NCBI GenBank assembly: GCA_947652735.1
Contig: CANTEG010000004.1
Location: 124,001 to 188,000, forward strand
Reading direction: 5' to 3'
DNA length: 64,000 nucleotides
Source of the DNA: an uncultured Lachnospiraceae bacterium
GTDB taxonomy: Bacteria > Bacillota > Clostridia > Lachnospirales > Lachnospiraceae
Shown here piece after piece: positions 26,018-55,727 of the stretch; positions within the stretch are counted from its first letter, which is position 1; every line of letters begins with the position of its first letter. The notes below the pieces were generated by a model, which was given only the letters and a program-made list of their open reading frames with translations, was not told the DNA's origin and made no database searches. Position numbers and translations under genes: made by a program.

Positions 26018-26719
26018 TTAAAGCATTGTCTTGAACAAATTATTTCGAACCCTGCTAAGATTTGCAAGTGCCATCATTTTGCGACGTCTTATCCACCATG
26101 ATTCTTCGTCATCATCCTTTACTTTTCTTCTTCCCATACTGCCACCCATAGGACCAGACTGACCTAAATGCTCCTCAATGGACGCCCCAAATCTCTCGGT
26201 ATGATAGTTAGGGGAGTATCCCATCATGGATGCGAATGGATTATGTACTGACCTGTCTTCGGAAGTATATCCGAGCACCCATGCCTCATATAACGGGTCA
26301 TTTTTCATCTGCTCCCATCCCTTGTCCGATATGCTCCAAACGTTCACGTCATTTTTTTGGGATACGTCATATGGTATACTATCCATAAGCTTTGTAAAAA
26401 ACTGCTTATATTCATCCATCGTCATATCTTCCCTTGAAATACCTTCAGCATTATTTTTTGCAAGAACCCGCTGTCCTGCCCTGACCTGATTTTCAACGTG
26501 CCATGCATCCTTCGGATGATTCTTCTTGTATTCATCCACGACACTTTCTTTTTGCGAAGCTTTGTTTCTCAAAGTATCAGAAAACTTCACAGTATCCGTT
26601 GAAGAAGTTTGTGTTGCTGCTACGTTACCATTTGTTTGCACCTTTTTTGCGTTGTAGTTTTTTTGTATCATGGTCTGATACATCCCCAATTGGTACAGGC
26701 TTGTGTTAAAATAATTCAT
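26018..26719 (-). CDS. Unknown cytoplasmic-start protein, MQxDP-family member
   Basis: 233 residues with GGGAGG 8 bases before the ATG. No signal peptide or membrane helix. It begins MNYFNTSLYQLGMYQTMIQ, a Tyr/Ser-rich head, then a polar linker, and has SISDKGWEQMKNDPLYEAWV, which aligns with the motif I-x-P-x-x-L-x-K-M-Q-x-D-P of the proteins at 28069, 51801 and 53015. A basic C-terminus (WWIRRRKMMALANLSRVR) follows a Gly/Met patch. The group may correspond to the uncharacterised DUF6033-type proteins of Lachnospiraceae (memory only). Function unknown. It follows the aldolase gene but a terminator lies between them. Confidence 0.7.
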   Translation of the reverse strand: MNYFNTSLYQLGMYQTMIQKNYNAKKVQTNGNVAATQTSSTDTVKFSDTLRNKASQKESVVDEYKKNHPKDAWHVENQVRAGQRVLAKNNAEGISREDMTMDEYKQFFTKLMDSIPYDVSQKNDVNVWSISDKGWEQMKNDPLYEAWVLGYTSEDRSVHNPFASMMGYSPNYHTERFGASIEEHLGQSGPMGGSMGRRKVKDDDEESWWIRRRKMMALANLSRVRNNLFKTML

Positions 26720-28068: not shown

Positions 28069-29067
28069 TTACTCGGTTATCTGACCTTTTGATGCATAAT
28101 AATCATCAAACAGTTTATTTGCCGCATCCAGCGTTGCATTGCTGATATCAGGAAGCTTCCGTCCCCATGATTTCGTTGCCAGCTTAAAGCCCTTATGCAT
28201 TGCAGCCTGCATTTCTTTCATTTTTTCGACGTCATCCCCTGCAAGTGCACTAGCAAAATCAAATAATCTCTGGGAGGTCTGCTTTACGCCCCAATAACCA
28301 TCCTCGGAAATATCTTTCTGTGCCTGAGCCTTTGTTGCGGCATCCACTGTATAGTTTCCGCTTGCAATGAACTTCCACATTGCATCTCCACCCTTGGCAA
28401 TACCATAGGCTTTTGCCTGCTTACCCAGCATGTTCCTGACAAGGTTTGTAAGGCTCTGCTGCCTTGCCTCCTCGTCTGCCTTTAACTGCTGCACCAGCCT
28501 TGCCCTGTCCTCGGCACTCATTTTTGTTACGGAATAGGTTGCCTTTGGGGCAGTAGAATCAGATTTTTCATATGTATCTGTCTTTTTTGCTTTTTCTTCC
28601 TCTGCCTTCTTTTCCTTCTGCTTTTTAATCCGCTCCTGCTGCTCCTTAACGTCTACCTTCTTGTATGTCTTCTTCTTCTCCTTGCCGCACTGGCTAATGG
28701 ACCATCCGCCACAGGTACCGTCTGCATTAATAATCATTCCTCTTGCCACAGTTGTAAATTCGCCATGCTGCAAAGGCTCATTTTTCATTACCTGAACACA
28801 ATCATATATAAGTGCTTCGTACTCCATTCGTGCATCCGGATCCTCTTGCATCTTCCTTAAAATACTTGGTGAGATTGCGATGTTGTTTGTTCCGCCTGAA
28901 CTAAACGGCTGCGTATTTGTAGAAAAATTCATGTCCTTATACTGTTTTGACAAATCATCTAAAATACTGTCTGCTCCACTTCCTTGTGTTTGGGCATTGT
29001 CAACTCTGATTTTCGCATAATTATATGCTTCCTGTGATACCCAGCTGTCGCCTACCTTAACTGCCAT
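28069..29067 (-). CDS. Unknown MQxDP-family protein next to BlaI/M56 module 1
   Basis: 332 residues from ATG at 29067 (AAGGAGG 8 bases upstream). No signal peptide. A first domain contains SPSILRKMQEDPDARMEYEAL, matching NPKALEKMQSDPEFEKKMKEL in the two proteins at 51.8-53.8 kb, and MIINADGTCGGWSISQCGKE. A Lys/Glu-rich coiled coil (about residues 145-185) leads to a helical C-terminal domain without known motifs. It is 92 bp after the M56 gene, in the same order as the second module. A cytoplasmic or non-classically exported protein; function unknown. Confidence 0.7.
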   Translation of the reverse strand: MAVKVGDSWVSQEAYNYAKIRVDNAQTQGSGADSILDDLSKQYKDMNFSTNTQPFSSGGTNNIAISPSILRKMQEDPDARMEYEALIYDCVQVMKNEPLQHGEFTTVARGMIINADGTCGGWSISQCGKEKKKTYKKVDVKEQQERIKKQKEKKAEEEKAKKTDTYEKSDSTAPKATYSVTKMSAEDRARLVQQLKADEEARQQSLTNLVRNMLGKQAKAYGIAKGGDAMWKFIASGNYTVDAATKAQAQKDISEDGYWGVKQTSQRLFDFASALAGDDVEKMKEMQAAMHKGFKLATKSWGRKLPDISNATLDAANKLFDDYYASKGQITE

Positions 29068-29215
29068 ACTATCATCCTCCTTGATATGATACCTGCTATC
29101 GGCAAAAACCAATAACAGCCGCACGTTTTATGTGCTTGTTAATATTATATTATAATTATTTACATATGTAAACAATTATGGCCTGATTATTACATTATCT
29201 ATCTGAAAAATTCTT

Positions 29216-30553
29216 TTACATCAAATACTTAAGCCAGAATTCCATAACATCATTCAGTAAACAATCCTTGCTCAAATAATAAATATCATCATAATTGTCA
29301 AGGGAAACCACACCTACATTTCCACCTCCGCCCCAACCAGGCACTTTGGTAATGGTATCAAAGCCGATGTAAACACAATCTCCCGATATGCCATTTTTCT
29401 CTATCAGGCTGTCAAACTTATCATTGTCTATAATCAACCTGCCATCATAAACCTTTACTGCGTCTTGCAGTTCCTCCGTGTCACACTCACACGAATTAAC
29501 ATTTTCGTCATATAAAAACAACCCTTTTATAACAGAATATCTGGGATATGAGCCCTTCCATATTCCAACTGCCAAGGCAGCAAATACCAGCGTAAATGCC
29601 AACGTCTGGGTTCTAAGCTTTCTAAAAAAACACTTTCTTGTGCCCGCAAGCTCAATATATGAAATCCGCTTTTTAATCTTGTTATAATCCTTTCCGCCCA
29701 CAAAGGACACCATATCCGCTTCGGCATTTTTACACATGCTTCCTGCAACAAACAGCAGTACTGCCCCATAGCTGTAAGGTTCCGTATTTGTGTAACCGAT
29801 GCATTTTTCGTCACAAATCCGTTCCATATCATCCCGCAGCTTACTATTTAACCAAAACATAACGGGATTTATCCACCAATAAATCCAAAGCAGCCGAAAT
29901 GCGAAAAGCCAAACGATATGTCCCGACCTTACGTGCATCAGCTCATGGCTCAACATCATAAGCTGTTCTTCCTCCGAAGCATCATTAAATAAATGCTTTG
30001 GGATTACAATATAAGGGCTCCAAATTCCGCCCGAAAACGGACTTATCTCTTTATCAGTAACGTATATGCGAACTCTGTTTAAATATGGTCCTGCAATACA
30101 ATTTCTTCCAAACCAACATTTACCATCAGCCAAGTCATGCCCCAACGTCTTTTCCACTGCCTTTACACGCATAGGCTCATCATTAAAGCGTCCCAGTCCT
30201 CTGACCCAGCGTCTCAGTTTATTATTCTTATGTAGAAAGCCAATCAGCAATACAAACATTACGAAAAAATATATTACTCCTACGTTTGTTGCTGCTATTT
30301 TATATAGGGTGCCAGTCAAAAAATATATATGCGGGATATAAAAAAATTTGCCCATTCCCGTAAATGCCATTGGCAAAACAAGTAAAACGGCATAAAAATC
30401 TATGTTTGCATATTTATTCCTGTTGCACAGGCGGATAATCAATATAAACGGCACCATAACAAGCCCCATAATCAGGGTTTTCATACATTTAAGCATACCG
30501 TACTGACAAAAAAATGTCCCAAAATTAATAATCGTACCCAAAATATTATCCAT
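29216..30553 (-). CDS. M56-family membrane metallopeptidase (BlaR1-like), module 1
   Basis: 445 residues. Helices near 22-42, 50-72, 90-112 and 310-330 frame a cytoplasmic zinc protease with HELMH in MMLSHELMHVRSGH and the later zinc-side Glu in DDMERICDEKCIG. After the last helix comes a short outer domain of about 100 residues ending KVPGWGGGGNVGV...; it is not a penicillin-binding domain, so beta-lactams are unlikely signals. In the BlaR1 paradigm, signal activates the protease, which removes the repressor encoded upstream. The start overlaps the BlaI stop by 8 bases, implying coupling. Confidence 0.88.
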   Translation of the reverse strand: MDNILGTIINFGTFFCQYGMLKCMKTLIMGLVMVPFILIIRLCNRNKYANIDFYAVLLVLPMAFTGMGKFFYIPHIYFLTGTLYKIAATNVGVIYFFVMFVLLIGFLHKNNKLRRWVRGLGRFNDEPMRVKAVEKTLGHDLADGKCWFGRNCIAGPYLNRVRIYVTDKEISPFSGGIWSPYIVIPKHLFNDASEEEQLMMLSHELMHVRSGHIVWLFAFRLLWIYWWINPVMFWLNSKLRDDMERICDEKCIGYTNTEPYSYGAVLLFVAGSMCKNAEADMVSFVGGKDYNKIKKRISYIELAGTRKCFFRKLRTQTLAFTLVFAALAVGIWKGSYPRYSVIKGLFLYDENVNSCECDTEELQDAVKVYDGRLIIDNDKFDSLIEKNGISGDCVYIGFDTITKVPGWGGGGNVGVVSLDNYDDIYYLSKDCLLNDVMEFWLKYLM

Positions 30554-30944
30554 TCTTTTTCCTATCTTTCATATTGAGCAATATAGTGTTTAATTCCTCA
30601 AGCTGCTCCTCGGTGATATTAGCACCTGACAGAAAGCTTGCAATTGCAAGAGATGCATTTCCGCCAAAATAATGCTTCACAAATCTTTCGCTCTTTAAGT
30701 CCAGGCATTCCTCTTTGGAGCACGCTGCACTATAATGGTACACCCTTGCATCGTTGGCATCAACTGTATACGTCAAAACGCCCTTTGTAACAAGGCGGTT
30801 AATCATAACCCTGATTGTCTTTTTACTGATATCCGTAACACCCTCAAGCTCCTTAATTATCGTTGAAGCAGTCACTGGTCCTCTATGTTTCCACACAATC
30901 TCCATAATCATCCATTCATTTTCACTTGGTATACCCTCTGCCAT
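30546..30944 (-). CDS. BlaI/MecI-family repressor, module 1
   Basis: 132 residues from ATG at 30944 (GGAGG 6 bases upstream). The winged helix is NEWMIMEIVWKHRGPVTAST and the recognition part KKTIRVMINRLVTKGVL; the wing carries DANDARVYHYSA. The dimerisation tail includes FVKHYFGGNAS, the region where BlaI/MecI relatives are cleaved. It presumably represses its own operon (BlaI, M56, unknown protein). A dyad at 31020-31033 is an operator candidate. It is divergent from the HD-GYP gene. Confidence 0.9.
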   Translation of the reverse strand: MAEGIPSENEWMIMEIVWKHRGPVTASTIIKELEGVTDISKKTIRVMINRLVTKGVLTYTVDANDARVYHYSAACSKEECLDLKSERFVKHYFGGNASLAIASFLSGANITEEQLEELNTILLNMKDRKKNG

Positions 30945-31019
30945 ATTAACCTCCAAGAATAAAGTACCTTTAGCACTGTAGTTCCTATCAAAACATAAAT
31001 ATTTCATTTATTATATCGG

Positions 31020-31033
31020 TTTACACACGTAAA
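31020..31033 (-). promoter_or_regulatory. BlaI operator candidate TTTAC-N4-GTAAA
   Basis: A short inverted repeat of 5-bp arms, just upstream of a minus-strand -10-like TATAAT (CCGATATAAT). BlaI/MecI relatives bind TACA/TGTA-type dyads in this position. The second module has a similar CCGATATAT but no equally clear dyad, so confidence is low. Confidence 0.35.
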
Positions 31034-31172
31034 TATTTAACCCTGTAATTAATTACTTGAACGGTTTACGCTCATCCAAAATAAAATCCCTTTACAATTA
31101 CAAAACAATTATATATAATAGGAAATAACTAGGGTTTTGCGTACCGAGAAATTACGAAAGGAGCAATACGTC

Positions 31173-34062: not shown

Positions 34063-34293
34063 TTATGCGTAATAAATTACTGTACTGTCTTCAGGTAATT
34101 CCCTATATTCTCTTTCCCGAAGCTCCTGCTCAAACGATAAGGTTCTCTTTTTCCGTCGCCTGCTGTCTTCTTCTTTTTTTTGTTTTGGATTCATGTAGAC
34201 CGGGGCAACGAACGCCACTCTCATGAATTCCCTAGCTCCGTAGTCTGCTTTAATCTCCTCCCTTCCGTCGTCTGTAGACATATATAAAAGCAC
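34063..34293 (-). CDS. Small basic/charged protein, unknown
   Basis: 64-68 codons: ATG at 34281 is preferred (a GTG at 34293 adds four residues; the reading with GTG is 76 residues). The product is highly charged: KQKKEEDSRRRKKRTLSFEQ then ELREREYRELPEDS, ending VIYYA. No membrane segment. No ribosome binding site precedes either start, but a -10-like TATAAT lies at 34303-34308, so the message may be leaderless or nearly so. A strong terminator follows, which supports it being a real gene. Function unknown. Confidence 0.5.
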   Translation of the reverse strand: MLLYMSTDDGREEIKADYGAREFMRVAFVAPVYMNPKQKKEEDSRRRKKRTLSFEQELREREYRELPEDSTVIYYA

Positions 34294-34399
34294 TACGTTT
34301 CTATTATATATATCGGACGGAAGGGTAGAAAATTACACCTTTTTTGTATGAAATTTCTAAAATAAAGCTTCTGAATTTTGATAAATTTTTATGGCATAT

Positions 34400-51800: not shown

Positions 51801-52973
51801 TTATACAGTTAAATCCAGGTTTACGCCAACAGTGTTATGCTTTGTTTTATCTGTGCTTTGATTTGTCACAGTTCTTTTGCTTTCACTTTCTTCCTTTACC
51901 GTCTCCAGAAAGCTTCTAAATTCCGAGTCGTCCACATAAATCCTACCATCTCTTGAGCTTTCTATTTTTTCTGCAATTAACTGTTCCGCCTTAGTAAGAG
52001 GTTTAGGGGCAGCATTTTCTTCGCTTTCGTCAATCTTTTCTTCCTCCGCCTTTTCTGTTGCCTTTTCTGCTCTCTTTTCTTCCAGCACTTCCTCTAATTC
52101 TTCTTTTTTCTTTGCTGAATTTTCTCTTGTCTTTTTAATCAGTTCCTCCTGCTTTTTCCTGCTTTCTTCCCTTAGCTTTTTGTTCCATGTATTGTCTTTT
52201 TTGATATATGCGTAATGACAATAATTTCCGTTTTCATCTATGTAGCTATGCCGAAAGACACAGGTTGCACCTCTTTGCTTATCAAAAGCCTCTGCAATTT
52301 TTGTCATTTTTTCAACGCCGCCAATCAGCTCTTTCATCTTTTTTTCAAACTCAGGGTCACTTTGCATTTTTTCAAGTGCTTTTGGGTTGATAGTCAAAGT
52401 TTTTCCGCTTTTATCTGTGGCATGGGAATATCCCGTCCTGAATTCCACGCTTGGGGCAAGCTTTTTCAGTGTATTCATATAGCCTGTGGTGCTATTTAAT
52501 TTGCTGCGGTCTACCGTACTGCTTTCCGTCCTGTTGCTTCCTGCTTTCAATGACAGTCTGTTAAACTCATCCGTAATCATTTTCTTAATTCCTGACTTGT
52601 CTGCCGCCCTTTGAAATGCCTGTTTCAGTCCGTTTAATTCTTCCTCCATCGTCATTTTCCTATAACCCGTTTCAGAGGTTTTATCTTCTACATAACGCTC
52701 TCTTGTGCCATTTTTATAGCCCTGTACGATTTCGTCACGGAGCTTTTCATATGCCCTGACATAATCCTTTGCCTGCTTCGAAGATGTGTATGTGCTTCCT
52801 TTTTGTCCTTTGAGCTTTTCGGTTTCCTTTATCAATTCATTATCATAATTATTTGCAAGCAGAGCACTTGTCGCCTGCTTTGCCTGTAATACAGCTTTAT
52901 CCTTCTTCTGATAAGATTTATCTATCTGGGAATATTGATAAAACCATTCCCTATTGTTACTGCTTATATTCAT
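51801..52973 (-). CDS. Unknown MQxDP-family protein with coiled coil, module 2, second copy
   Basis: 390 residues, AGGAGG before the ATG, no signal peptide or helix through the membrane. Head MNISSNNREWFYQYSQ, then a helical region, the shared core (TLKKLAPSVEFRTG, LTINPKALEKMQSDPEF, IGGVEKM, FRHSYIDENGNYCHYAYI), a Lys/Glu coiled coil (ENSAKKKEELEEVLEEKRA) and a C-terminal segment IYVDDSEFRSFLETVKEESES. The last 230 residues are nearly the same as in the neighbour at 53015, with an extra 130-residue N-terminal region here. Function unknown; see findings. Confidence 0.75.
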   Translation of the reverse strand: MNISSNNREWFYQYSQIDKSYQKKDKAVLQAKQATSALLANNYDNELIKETEKLKGQKGSTYTSSKQAKDYVRAYEKLRDEIVQGYKNGTRERYVEDKTSETGYRKMTMEEELNGLKQAFQRAADKSGIKKMITDEFNRLSLKAGSNRTESSTVDRSKLNSTTGYMNTLKKLAPSVEFRTGYSHATDKSGKTLTINPKALEKMQSDPEFEKKMKELIGGVEKMTKIAEAFDKQRGATCVFRHSYIDENGNYCHYAYIKKDNTWNKKLREESRKKQEELIKKTRENSAKKKEELEEVLEEKRAEKATEKAEEEKIDESEENAAPKPLTKAEQLIAEKIESSRDGRIYVDDSEFRSFLETVKEESESKRTVTNQSTDKTKHNTVGVNLDLTV

Positions 52974-53014
52974 AACCTGACCTCCTTTACCTTTTGAACG
53001 AAAAACCTGCTATT

Positions 53015-53833
53015 TTATACTTTTAAGTCCAGATTTGTACCAATCATACTTTGCTCTGTCACAGTGCCTTTGCTTTCGCTTTCTTCCTTTACCGCCTCCA
53101 GAAAGATTCTAAATTCCGAGTCGTCCACATAAATCCTGCCGTCACTTGAGCTTTCTATTTTCTCTGCAATTAACTGTTCCGCCTTAGTAAGAGGTTTAGG
53201 GGCAGCATTTTCTTCGCTTTCGTCAACCTTTTCTTTCTCTGCCTTTTCTGCTCTCTTTTCTTCCAGCACTTCCTCTAATTCTTCTTTTTTCTTTGCTGAA
53301 TTTTCTTTCGTTTTCTCCATCAGCTCTTCAGCATTTTCACGTCGTTCTTCCCGAAGCTTATCACTCAAATTCAGCATATAATCATTTCGAGTCATGGCGA
53401 TGTGGCAATAATTGCCGTTTTCATCTATGTAGCTGTGCCGATATACTGTTGTCCAGCCAGTCGCTCTATTAAAACTTTCCGCTATCTTTTCCATTTTTTC
53501 AACGCCGCCAATCAGCTCTTTCATCTTTTTTTCAAACTCAGGGTCACTTTGCATTTTTTCAAGAGCTTTTGGGTTAATGGTCAAAGTTTTTCCGCTTTTA
53601 TCCGAGGCAGGGGTACACCCTGTCCTGAATTCAACGCTTGGGGCAAGCTTCTTCAGTGTATTCATATAGTCCGTAGTACTGCTTGGTTTACTGCTGCTTA
53701 CCGCACCAGTTTCCGCCTTATTGCTTTTCGACGGTTCTGATGATTCCTTTTTCCTTGTGTTCCCTGTCGTTTTGTTTTCCATCACGTACTGTGATGCATA
53801 ATTGTTATAGCTTCCTGAAATCTCCATTGTCAT
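53015..53833 (-). CDS. Unknown MQxDP-family protein with coiled coil, module 2, first copy
   Basis: 272 residues, AAGGAGG 8 bases before the ATG. Head MTMEISGSYNNYASQYVMEN is Tyr/Ser-rich, typical of a poorly known group of Lachnospiraceae proteins without signal peptide. Core and coiled coil are the same as in the 51801 protein (RHSYIDENGNYCHIAMTRND; KPLTKAEQLIAEKIESSSDG). It is directly after the M56 gene of module 2 (72 bp) and 41 bp before its tandem copy, so all four genes probably form one operon. Confidence 0.75.
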   Translation of the reverse strand: MTMEISGSYNNYASQYVMENKTTGNTRKKESSEPSKSNKAETGAVSSSKPSSTTDYMNTLKKLAPSVEFRTGCTPASDKSGKTLTINPKALEKMQSDPEFEKKMKELIGGVEKMEKIAESFNRATGWTTVYRHSYIDENGNYCHIAMTRNDYMLNLSDKLREERRENAEELMEKTKENSAKKKEELEEVLEEKRAEKAEKEKVDESEENAAPKPLTKAEQLIAEKIESSSDGRIYVDDSEFRIFLEAVKEESESKGTVTEQSMIGTNLDLKV

Positions 53834-53905
53834 AAAATCATCCTCCTTGATTATAAATTGTTAGAAATCCTTTTCATTTTCATACTTCTTTTGGAATGTT
53901 TCCCC

Positions 53906-55159
53906 TTACAGTAGTTTACATAATCTATGTGCCCAATTATCCATAATGCTTTCATATGGAATCCTCACTATCTTGTCTGTGGAACCTCGTTCATAAACAC
54001 AGCCCTCCGCCATGCCTCCCAAACCGGGCAGCTTGTAATATCCACCAAAAACAATGTAAATATCACCATTGGCATTGTTTCGGTATAAGAAATCCTCAAA
54101 AGCTTCCCTGTCCACGTACACATAGCTGTTATCATAGGAAATCATACTGCTTAGTTCTTCCGTGTCCGTTGAAACTATAGTCGCCTCACCATCGTAATTG
54201 CCAATCATAATGTCGTTGCTTTCACTGTAACGTGCATAAGAGTTGATATGTATCACGAACAATATAGCTACAACTGTCATAAATGTTACAATTGCTGTAA
54301 ACACACACAGCCTTTTTTTGTAGGGACGAAAATCCGCGATTTCCCCCATTCTTCTTTTCATATCTGCAAATTCCTTTTCTCCTGCATAAGTAGCCGTTGT
54401 CGGTATATTCTCCTGTCCGTCACTTAGAAGCTTCAGGCTTTTTAAAAGCACCAAACCATATTCGTGTGCCGTTCTCCCGCTTTTTTGTATGCATACCCTG
54501 TCACATATATCTTCTAAATCCGCCCACAAGTACTTTCTGCAAACTGCAAAAAACGGATTTACCCACAGCAGGCATTGCAGAATATCCCACACAAAGCCAT
54601 ACCATAAATGCCCCAGCCTGATATGTGTCTGCTCATGCAGCACAATGGCTCTTAACTCGTCCTTACCGTAACTTTCAAGCATTGCACGGGGCAAGATAAT
54701 TCTAGGTACAAACAGCCCTGACGTAAATGGTGTAATGTTCATATCCGTGACATAAATCTGCACATGTTCAAAAACAGACTGTTCCATTCCTGCAACAATT
54801 TTCCTAAGGTACAAACGCTTTCCCAACAAAAATAATGCGGTCACCAAAATACCTGCCATATAAATACGGTCAACCCAAATATATTTCATGGTCACATGTG
54901 TAATCTGCCACGTTTTCCTAACCACTGTTTCATTTTCATAAAACAGTTTTAATTTCCCAAGAAACGGAATGCATAAAAACAGGCTCCACAGCATTCCCCT
55001 TATAAATACCTGTTTAGAAAAAAGCAGCCTCCGAAGCAGCATCACAAACCCGATAAGCACAAACGAAAACGCTGCGCACCGCACGAGCTGAGTCGTAAAA
55101 TATACGACACAAAAATCAATTACGCCGCTAAATTGTGACCAGTCAATCATAGTAATCAC
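53906..55159 (-). CDS. M56-family membrane metallopeptidase (BlaR1-like), module 2
   Basis: 417 residues; helices near 12-45, 55-68, 92-112 and 288-310. Zinc motif HEQTH in IVLHEQTHIRLGH and the downstream ADLEDICDRVCI Glu. The outer C-terminal domain of about 105 residues (STDTEELSSMISYDNSYVYV, then YKLPGLGGMAEG) matches that of module 1 (CDTEELQDAVKVYDGRLIID, KVPGWGGGG), and has no penicillin-binding fold. Overlaps the BlaI stop by 17 bases; ATG at 55150 is an alternative start. Predicted to inactivate the BlaI-like repressor on sensing an unknown outside signal. Confidence 0.87.
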   Translation of the reverse strand: MITMIDWSQFSGVIDFCVVYFTTQLVRCAAFSFVLIGFVMLLRRLLFSKQVFIRGMLWSLFLCIPFLGKLKLFYENETVVRKTWQITHVTMKYIWVDRIYMAGILVTALFLLGKRLYLRKIVAGMEQSVFEHVQIYVTDMNITPFTSGLFVPRIILPRAMLESYGKDELRAIVLHEQTHIRLGHLWYGFVWDILQCLLWVNPFFAVCRKYLWADLEDICDRVCIQKSGRTAHEYGLVLLKSLKLLSDGQENIPTTATYAGEKEFADMKRRMGEIADFRPYKKRLCVFTAIVTFMTVVAILFVIHINSYARYSESNDIMIGNYDGEATIVSTDTEELSSMISYDNSYVYVDREAFEDFLYRNNANGDIYIVFGGYYKLPGLGGMAEGCVYERGSTDKIVRIPYESIMDNWAHRLCKLL

Positions 55160-55568
55160 CCTTTTTATCCGAAGCTCTGGTTCCCTGCTCCCTGCTCTTT
55201 TCCAAAATTTCTTCTAACTCCTTTATCTGCTCATCAGTTAGCACAAAGCTTTGCAACAATGCAGCCATCGCATTTGTTCCGCTGCCTGAAAAATAGCTGT
55301 CCACAAATTTCCTGCTTTTTTCCTTTACACATTCCTCTTTTGTTTTTCGTACATAGTAATGGTAAACCCTTGCATCATGCTCATCCACCTGATACCCCAA
55401 AATATCCTTGCTGCTTAAACGGTTCATCAACACGCGTACCATTCGCTGTGACATGTCAACGGACCCCTGCATCCTTTTGTAAACCTCAGAGGACGTCAAA
55501 GGCGATTCACTATTCCAAAGTATTTCCATAATCTGCCACTCACTTGGTGTAATTTCTTCCTTTTCCAT
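55143..55568 (-). CDS. BlaI/MecI-family repressor, module 2
   Basis: 141 residues. Winged helix SEWQIMEILWNSESPLTSSE, QRMVRVLMNRLSSKDIL, wing DEHDARVYHYYV, and tail FVDSYFSGSGTNAMAAL where BlaI relatives are cut. AAAGGAAAT-type site upstream of the ATG. Closely alike to the module 1 repressor (VRVLMNRL versus IRVMINRL; HDARVYHY versus NDARVYHY). Probably represses the operon running to 51801. Confidence 0.9.
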   Translation of the reverse strand: MEKEEITPSEWQIMEILWNSESPLTSSEVYKRMQGSVDMSQRMVRVLMNRLSSKDILGYQVDEHDARVYHYYVRKTKEECVKEKSRKFVDSYFSGSGTNAMAALLQSFVLTDEQIKELEEILEKSREQGTRASDKKGDYYD

Positions 55569-55727
55569 AGTTAAAATTTCCTTTCATTATTTACTTAACT
55601 GAATGCTTCTGTTTTTAATCTGCCTGTTATGTAATATATCGGTCAACAAGCATTAATCATTAACAGCCATTAACCATTTAGTTAAGCTTATTTGGGGGAT
55701 TAATTTATATATTGACTTCCGGTACTA

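Follow-up and report, generated by a model that had tools for sequence, protein, structure and literature searches.

The window considered here is a 64-kb stretch of DNA (64,000 nucleotides; positions 124,001 to 188,000 of contig CANTEG010000004.1, assembly GCA_947652735.1) from an uncultured Lachnospiraceae bacterium. Its minus strand holds two gene modules, A and B, in which the gene for a BlaI-type repressor is followed by the overlapping gene for an M56 membrane metalloprotease and then by genes for one or two proteins with an LxKMQxDP core (Table 1). This arrangement had been described in a first-pass annotation, and all of its open reading frames (ORFs) were confirmed, with Pfam matches above the cut-offs. 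The repressors match Penicillinase_R (PF03965) with 78 and 86.6 bits (cut-off 22.6), and the proteases match Peptidase_M56 with 84.8 and 92.5 bits. The core-carrying proteins, which the annotation had regarded as an unknown family, belong to one that already has a name, PF19498 (DUF6033, a domain of unknown function); they score 30.3 (A2), 27.8 (A1) and 54 bits (B) against a cut-off of 25 (E 4.7e-7, 2.8e-6 and 2.7e-14, respectively). Their cores read LEKMQSDPEF, LEKMQSDPEF and LRKMQEDPDA, and A2 and A1 are 69% identical over the aligned part. The start of protein B was placed at the ATG with a clear ribosome-binding site at 29067 and not at the GTG further upstream, at 29124.

Table 1. Features of the two modules and of a further DUF6033-like gene in the window.
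Feature	Position	Strand	Remarks
Module A promoter	55635..55674	-	sigma28-type: TTAA 55663-55660, N17, CCGATATA 55642-55635
Predicted BlaI operator A, GTTAATGGCTGTTAATGATTAATGCTTGTTGAC	55674-55642	-	overlaps the sigma28-type promoter of module A
BlaI-type repressor A, 141 aa	55143..55568	-	PF03965 E 9e-22
M56 membrane metalloprotease A, 417 aa	53906..55159	-	HEQTH; Pfam Peptidase_M56; no penicillin-binding domain
DUF6033 protein A1, 272 aa	53015..53833	-	PF19498 E 2.8e-6; no hydrophobic segment
DUF6033 protein A2, 390 aa	51801..52973	-	PF19498 E 4.7e-7
Module B promoter	31012..31039	-	TAAA 31039-31036, N16, CCGATATA 31019-31012
Palindrome TTTACGTGTGTAAA	31033-31020	-	inside the spacer of the sigma28-type promoter of module B
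BlaI-type repressor B	30546..30944	-	PF03965 E 2e-24; start set by ribosome site at 30955
M56 membrane metalloprotease B, 445 aa	29216..30553	-	HELMH; PF05569 E 3.6e-26
Predicted BlaI operator/promoter of the module B DUF6033 gene	29144..29172	-	TTTACATATGTAAA 29172-29159 overlaps TTTACA-N17-TATAAT
DUF6033 protein B	28069..29067	-	PF19498 54 bits; N-terminal DUF6033 fused to a second domain, 28536-28072
Divergent DUF6033-superfamily protein	26018..26719	-	E 7.7e-17 with a profile built for this analysis, of whose search it was itself a seed

The two M56 proteins share 25-26% identity. Across an alignment of 63 M56 sequences (the two window proteins and 61 of 70 others), the zinc-protease HExxH residues H175, E176 and H179 are invariant. 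In M56 A the last hydrophobic segment (residues 285-303) is followed by a tail of about 114 amino acids predicted to lie outside. Alignment to BlaR1 structures (8exp) covers positions 128-353 only of a protein that ends at 417, the C-terminal penicillin-binding sensor domain being absent, and under the NCBIfam BlaR1 model, whose cut-off is 400 bits, the scores are 57-62. Because this domain is missing, M56 is not a beta-lactam sensor, which bears out the earlier statement that the system is not linked to beta-lactams; the tail, predicted to face outwards, would take the place of that domain.

To follow the conservation of the neighbourhood, nine module M56 proteins were aligned and 84,980 species genomes scanned with the result; the best 80 of 148 confirmed relatives were retained. 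BlaI is present at 79 of these 80 loci and DUF6033 lies downstream at 69 (six-frame recount; an earlier ORF-based count gave 65), so that the neighbourhood described in the annotation is kept in related genomes. The six-frame script itself had tallied 66 loci with both, 10 with BlaI only, two with DUF6033 only and two with neither; loci L191, L218, L224 and L228 were corrected by hand, as their frames overlap past the limit of the script, and in L228 a single frame holds both BlaI and M56. Among the 11 DUF6033-free loci, four have at most 220 bases remaining on the contig. Where lineages are named, the 80 loci fall mostly within the Lachnospiraceae and other Clostridia, together with two metagenome-assembled genomes labelled Bacteroides and Bacillus, whose labels are unchecked. 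Some genomes carry several module copies: three in Roseburia sp. 1XD42-69, and two each in E. plexicaudatum ASF492 and Sporofaciens musculi.

The host genome (2.77 Mb) holds four M56 genes and eight PF19498 matches. Its DUF6033-type genes stand behind BlaI-M56 twice, both in the window, behind LytTR-histidine kinase pairs on contigs C9 (1-6000, three consecutive genes) and C4 (1-4000, two genes), and without a sensor gene directly before them on C1 and at 72 kb of C9; the output family is thus constant and the sensor differs. Within the stretches fetched, the other two host BlaI-M56 pairs, on C2 and C13, have no DUF6033 gene adjoining. The DUF6033-free locus on C2 carries TTACATATGTAA (L017:1555) upstream of the gene for a 1130-aa protein, possibly a different BlaI target. 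On C1, a LytTR-kinase pair and, by eye, an AgrB-like small membrane protein (L014:8686-11298) lie about 2-5 kb from the DUF6033 gene.

The flagellar sigma factor, sigma28, is active late in flagellar assembly. Its consensus in this group, as quoted for Butyrivibrio, is TAAA-N16-17-MCGATAa (PMC3720852), and the module promoters match this quoted form; relative to TAAA-N15-17-CCGATAW, module B (TAAA-N16) fits and module A (TTAA-N17) is one letter off. The strict pattern TWAA-N14-18-CCGATAW is found upstream of 54 of 64 module BlaI genes (30/38 non-redundant) and of 2/445 other genes in the same loci (2/375 non-redundant), with 0/64 and 8/445, respectively, on the reverse strand. The BlaI count covers 64 of the 80 loci. 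Here and in the first locus set, genes that are shorter than 100 aa, cut by the sequence end or preceded by fewer than 200 bases were excluded, as were, among the controls, those with a same-strand neighbour no more than 60 bases away. In that first set, a CCGATAW box stands within 250 bases upstream of the first gene of 16 of 21 sensor-DUF modules (reverse strand, 3/21), of 27 of 69 DUF6033 genes that no sensor gene immediately precedes (reverse, 5), of 2/46 inner DUF6033 genes (reverse, 1) and of 19/396 other genes (reverse, 19/396). As an internal control, neither of the two host BlaI-M56 pairs lacking DUF6033 has a CGATAW upstream. The related pattern TWAA-N14-17-CCGATAW is not specific genome-wide (59 sites versus 35 in the reversed control), and therefore only its position ahead of module genes is used.

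These promoters are overlapped by conserved repeats. Across 32 aligned promoters, the majority consensus GtcAACanctaTTAATnATTAAcgAnnaTTGAC abuts the -10 element, and most module promoters carry GtcAACanctaTTAATnATTAAcgAnnaTTGACCGATATATAa, a nested inverted repeat running into it. A pattern with a fixed GTTAAT start had 0 matches in 278 loci; it was too strict, and the consensus was used instead. The palindrome of module B, TTTACNNNNGTAAA, occurs at exactly two sites in the window (shuffle mean 0.13), one within the sigma28-type promoter, in its spacer, the other on the TTTACA-N17-TATAAT promoter of the DUF6033 gene. The bla/mec operator is TACAnnTGTA, which the module B palindrome TTTACATATGTAAA resembles. 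We predict that the conserved repeat overlapping the module promoters is the BlaI operator. Regulation of the downstream proteins by BlaI-M56, as the annotation had proposed, is very probable given the conserved operon, the repeat on its promoter and the second palindrome in module B; the role of stress or competition effectors that it had assigned to them is unsupported.

Independently of promoters, DUF6033 follows the flagellum in the distribution of genomes. A sample of 299 genomes of the family (298 genera, nearly one genus per genome) was scored for FlhA (E ≤ 1e-20), DUF6033 (E ≤ 0.001) and module-type M56 (E ≤ 1e-50). DUF6033 is present in 99, FlhA in 153 and both in 97; accordingly, FlhA occurs in 97/99 DUF6033-positive and in 56/200 DUF6033-negative genomes (p 2.4e-35). 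For one of the exceptions, G272, FlhA is represented only by two fragments, of which one has a stop. Module-type M56 is found in 17 genomes, all 17 of which carry both FlhA and DUF6033. Class-wide, DUF6033 occurs in 18/391 genomes, five of them outside the family, and four of those five have FlhA. In G558, a genome from a different family of this class, flhB-flhA-sigma factor is followed by cheC and MCP-domain genes and, at a distance of about 5 kb, by a DUF6033 gene that has TAAA-N17-CCGATATA and adjoins an FlxA-like gene. The C-terminal domain of protein B (YWGVKQTSQRLFDFA...) forms a family of its own, for which Pfam gives no match in protein B; it is found in 127 of the 299 family genomes, 124 of them FlhA-positive, and sigma28-like sites precede several of the copies outside the window.

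At other loci, DUF6033 is wired to a LytTR/GHKL-kinase pair (AgrAC-like), so that the sensor appears to be an exchangeable plug-in. Direct repeats 20-23 bases apart are typical of LytTR regulators, and they lie upstream of 9/15 LytTR genes with a CGATAW box, as against 3.5% of shuffles and 2/68 BlaI promoters; here they accompany a sigma28-type promoter and a regulator that precedes DUF6033, which sets these pairs apart from their known relatives. A -35 element is present in 2/16 of the boxed LytTR genes (L121, listed among the 21 LytTR rows, in fact encodes a kinase; it is counted among the 16 and was dropped for the repeat count, n = 15), and in 13 of the 15 the next nine ORFs include both a kinase and a DUF6033 gene. 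A repeat on a complete promoter for BlaI, and repeats with a missing -35 for LytTR, are as expected for a repressor and an activator, respectively. Sensor exchange is also visible in a FastTree phylogeny of DUF6033 (124 of 193 rows after thinning and exclusion of short or X-holding ones; 123 after domain trimming), in which the BlaI-linked rows need seven label changes, at least five of them forced by supported branches, and BlaI versus LytTR alone gives six switches; its deep branches are unsure because the family is very divergent. Protein B groups with BlaI-linked L107 and LytTR-locus L113 (support 98); in L113 three other ORFs separate the kinase from DUF6033.

Taken as a regulatory model, to which we give a probability of about 0.7, each module would be a signal-gated operon of the late flagellar regulon. 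The model builds on computed observations, namely gene order and its conservation, the promoter and repeat motifs, the co-occurrence with flagella and the missing penicillin-binding domain. RNA polymerase carrying sigma28 would be able to transcribe blaI-M56-DUF6033, while BlaI, bound to the inverted repeat on the -35 and spacer, would shut the promoter. M56, a BlaR1-like membrane protease with a tail predicted to face outwards, may sense an extracytoplasmic cue and, once triggered, would cleave BlaI, upon which DUF6033 would be made. The resulting logic would be an AND-gate between the finished-flagellum condition of sigma28 and the condition of the sensor. In module B, BlaI would additionally sit on the separate housekeeping-type promoter ahead of the DUF6033 gene, and in the other branch the LytTR/GHKL-kinase pair would supply activator repeats to a sigma28-type promoter mostly lacking a -35.

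Several observations weigh against this model. In about 7 of the 32 aligned promoters a different repeat, ACAAAA...TTTTGT, occupies this position, and the operators of modules A and B differ. The module B palindrome is not enriched genome-wide (12 sites in 2.77 Mb versus 13 in the reversed control), and the pattern is thus meaningful only by position. DUF6033 is missing from 7 of the 76 module-M56 loci whose contigs run on for more than 220 bases, no box is recognisable at 42 of the 69 DUF6033 genes that stand outside sensor modules, and neither the LytTR module on host contig C9 nor that of G558 has one. With respect to flagella, G235 is DUF6033-positive with no FlhA match, G606 has a LytTR-histidine kinase-DUF6033 array with a box in a genome without FlhA, and the DUF6033 genes of G462 and G323 (five and one) have no CGATAW upstream and flank a CLI_3235/CcpM radical-SAM cluster for a ribosomally synthesised and post-translationally modified peptide (RiPP). 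Finally, the co-occurrence statistics ignore phylogeny, though almost each genome represents a separate genus. In an FlhA-free genome, L245:2919-10983 holds a LytTR-kinase pair, with a CCGATAT box at the LytTR gene, followed by small proteins, five of which are DUF6033-type by profile search. At L239, L240 and L241, from two genomes of Clostridia that lie outside the family, a CLI_3235 bacteriocin-precursor/CcpM radical-SAM cluster is flanked by DUF6033 genes.

As to what the DUF6033 proteins do, our guess is that they work at the flagellum or leave through it, a role in or on the flagellum and export as cargo being about equally likely. PF19498 matches all 55 members of the DUF6033 alignment (two window proteins and 53 of 64 locus candidates) at E ≤ 0.01. 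A sequence search gave no convincing solved relative, the single match being weak (E 0.12) and to a construct whose description names a coiled-coil domain, and no mention of DUF6033 was found in the open-access literature searched. A suggested likeness of DGRIYVDDSEF, from the C-terminus of DUF6033, to YVYVDREAF, from the M56 tail, was rejected, profile comparison giving a probability of 0.3%. At L088 and L091, six and five DUF6033-superfamily paralogues, all highly divergent, stand in an array next to a histidine kinase.

The best-placed explanation of function, possible though short of an even chance, is that DUF6033 proteins are cytosolic accessories or regulators of flagellar assembly or motility, whose sensors would tune swimming. 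The sigma28-like sites of the 27 genes outside sensor modules speak for it, as does the gene near the flagellar and chemotaxis cluster of G558; the copy number (eight matches in the host) and the divergence would, however, be unusual for a motor part, and 56 of the 153 FlhA-positive genomes do without DUF6033.

Somewhat more tentatively, they may be secreted factors directed against competitors or hosts, exported via the flagellar type III apparatus in polymorphic tandem sets. The FlhA link, the arrays of divergent paralogues and the RiPP neighbours in two genomes are in keeping with this, and in Campylobacter non-flagellar proteins are reported to leave through the flagellum. The window proteins have no hydrophobic segment or signal by hydropathy, and the N-terminus is poorly charged (fraction 0.10 at residues 5-22 versus 0.365 after residue 30, in 55 sequences with starts re-anchored by a motif), which would fit flagellar export without showing it; export through the flagellum is, on these grounds, plausible. 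Against it, no toxin or immunity domain was detected in the Pfam scan of the window proteins, none of the seven proteins matches a PADLOC defence model at E ≤ 0.01, and a cytosolic role fits equally well. A wider form of this proposal, to which we give much the same probability, is that motile Lachnospiraceae carry polymorphic arrays of flagellum-exported DUF6033/second-domain proteins, each locked by an exchangeable, outward-looking sensor on a sigma28 promoter, so that cargo would be deployed only when the flagellum is finished and the cue is met.

Two further explanations are improbable. In the first, the modules would be a cell-wall or antibiotic stress circuit of the BlaI-BlaR1 type, with DUF6033 protecting the envelope and the flagellar link incidental. 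BlaI and M56 are bona fide members of their families, and BlaI operons with hypothetical proteins in C. thermocellum have been read as beta-lactam responses (PMC8457756); we nevertheless consider this reading very unlikely, since M56 has no penicillin-binding sensor domain and falls far below the BlaR1 cut-off, the DUF6033 proteins of the window have no hydrophobic segment, all 17 module genomes are flagellated and the promoter is sigma28-type. In the second, equally unlikely one, the CCGATAW box would belong to the repressor site instead of being a sigma28 promoter, and the flagellar co-occurrence would be a product of shared ancestry. Promoters of the module A type do have the box fused with the repeat, but this -10 is also found with an unrelated regulator (LytTR), without a sensor gene and with a different palindrome in module B, and the co-occurrence holds across 298 genera. 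For the surface-stress or competition response proposed in the annotation no support was found: the lack of defence-model matches is joined by promoter, phylogenetic and one gene-cluster signals that point to the sigma28 regulon, which the annotation had not considered. A competition role of DUF6033 itself may still hold, as set out above for secreted factors.

Elsewhere in the window, the divergent DUF6033-superfamily protein at 26719-26018 has no Pfam match, PF19498 included; its closest relative (55% identity) lies within a LytTR-histidine kinase array, and a sigma28-like -10 (26864-26857) with a poor -35 stands upstream of its gene. At 34063-34332 on the minus strand, an CCGATATA box (34316-34309) stands ahead of a short ORF (about 50 aa; MRVAFVAPVYMNPKQ... 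when translated by eye), which may belong to the sigma28 regulon as well.

Among known systems, the closest are BlaI-BlaR1 and MecI-MecR1 of Staphylococcus and Bacillus (mechanism described in PMC7593790), which likewise combine a winged-helix repressor with an overlapping gene for a membrane M56 protease bearing HExxH, a repeat on their own promoter and a target gene in or beside the operon. The modules differ from them in having a tail of about 110 aa in place of the class-D beta-lactamase-like sensor domain, a sigma28-type promoter, and DUF6033 rather than beta-lactamase or PBP2a as target. The C. thermocellum BlaI proteins (PMC8457756) are also clostridial and share nested inverted-repeat pairs, autoregulation and hypothetical-protein targets; they are reported to need paired inverted repeats, although their repeat is GTCTAT and flagella go unmentioned in that text. 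Genes driven by the flagellar sigma factor without an evident motility role are exemplified by E. coli flxA and modA (PMC4183435), flxA being FliA-dependent with no obvious flagellar role, and by C. difficile tcdR (PMC3865298); unlike the modules, no dedicated sensor on the sigma28 promoter is mentioned in the parts of these reports considered. For combinations of BlaI, M56 and flagella, nothing relevant appeared among the matches listed in the open-access literature.

If the model is true, BlaI-M56 pairs would gain a role outside antibiotic sensing, and DUF6033, a multi-copy Pfam family, would obtain its first functional link together with the second, unnamed domain. It would also add a sensor-controlled branch to the flagellar regulon of motile commensals of the gut (the named loci include Eubacterium plexicaudatum and a Roseburia strain), whose flagellins are of interest to immunologists.

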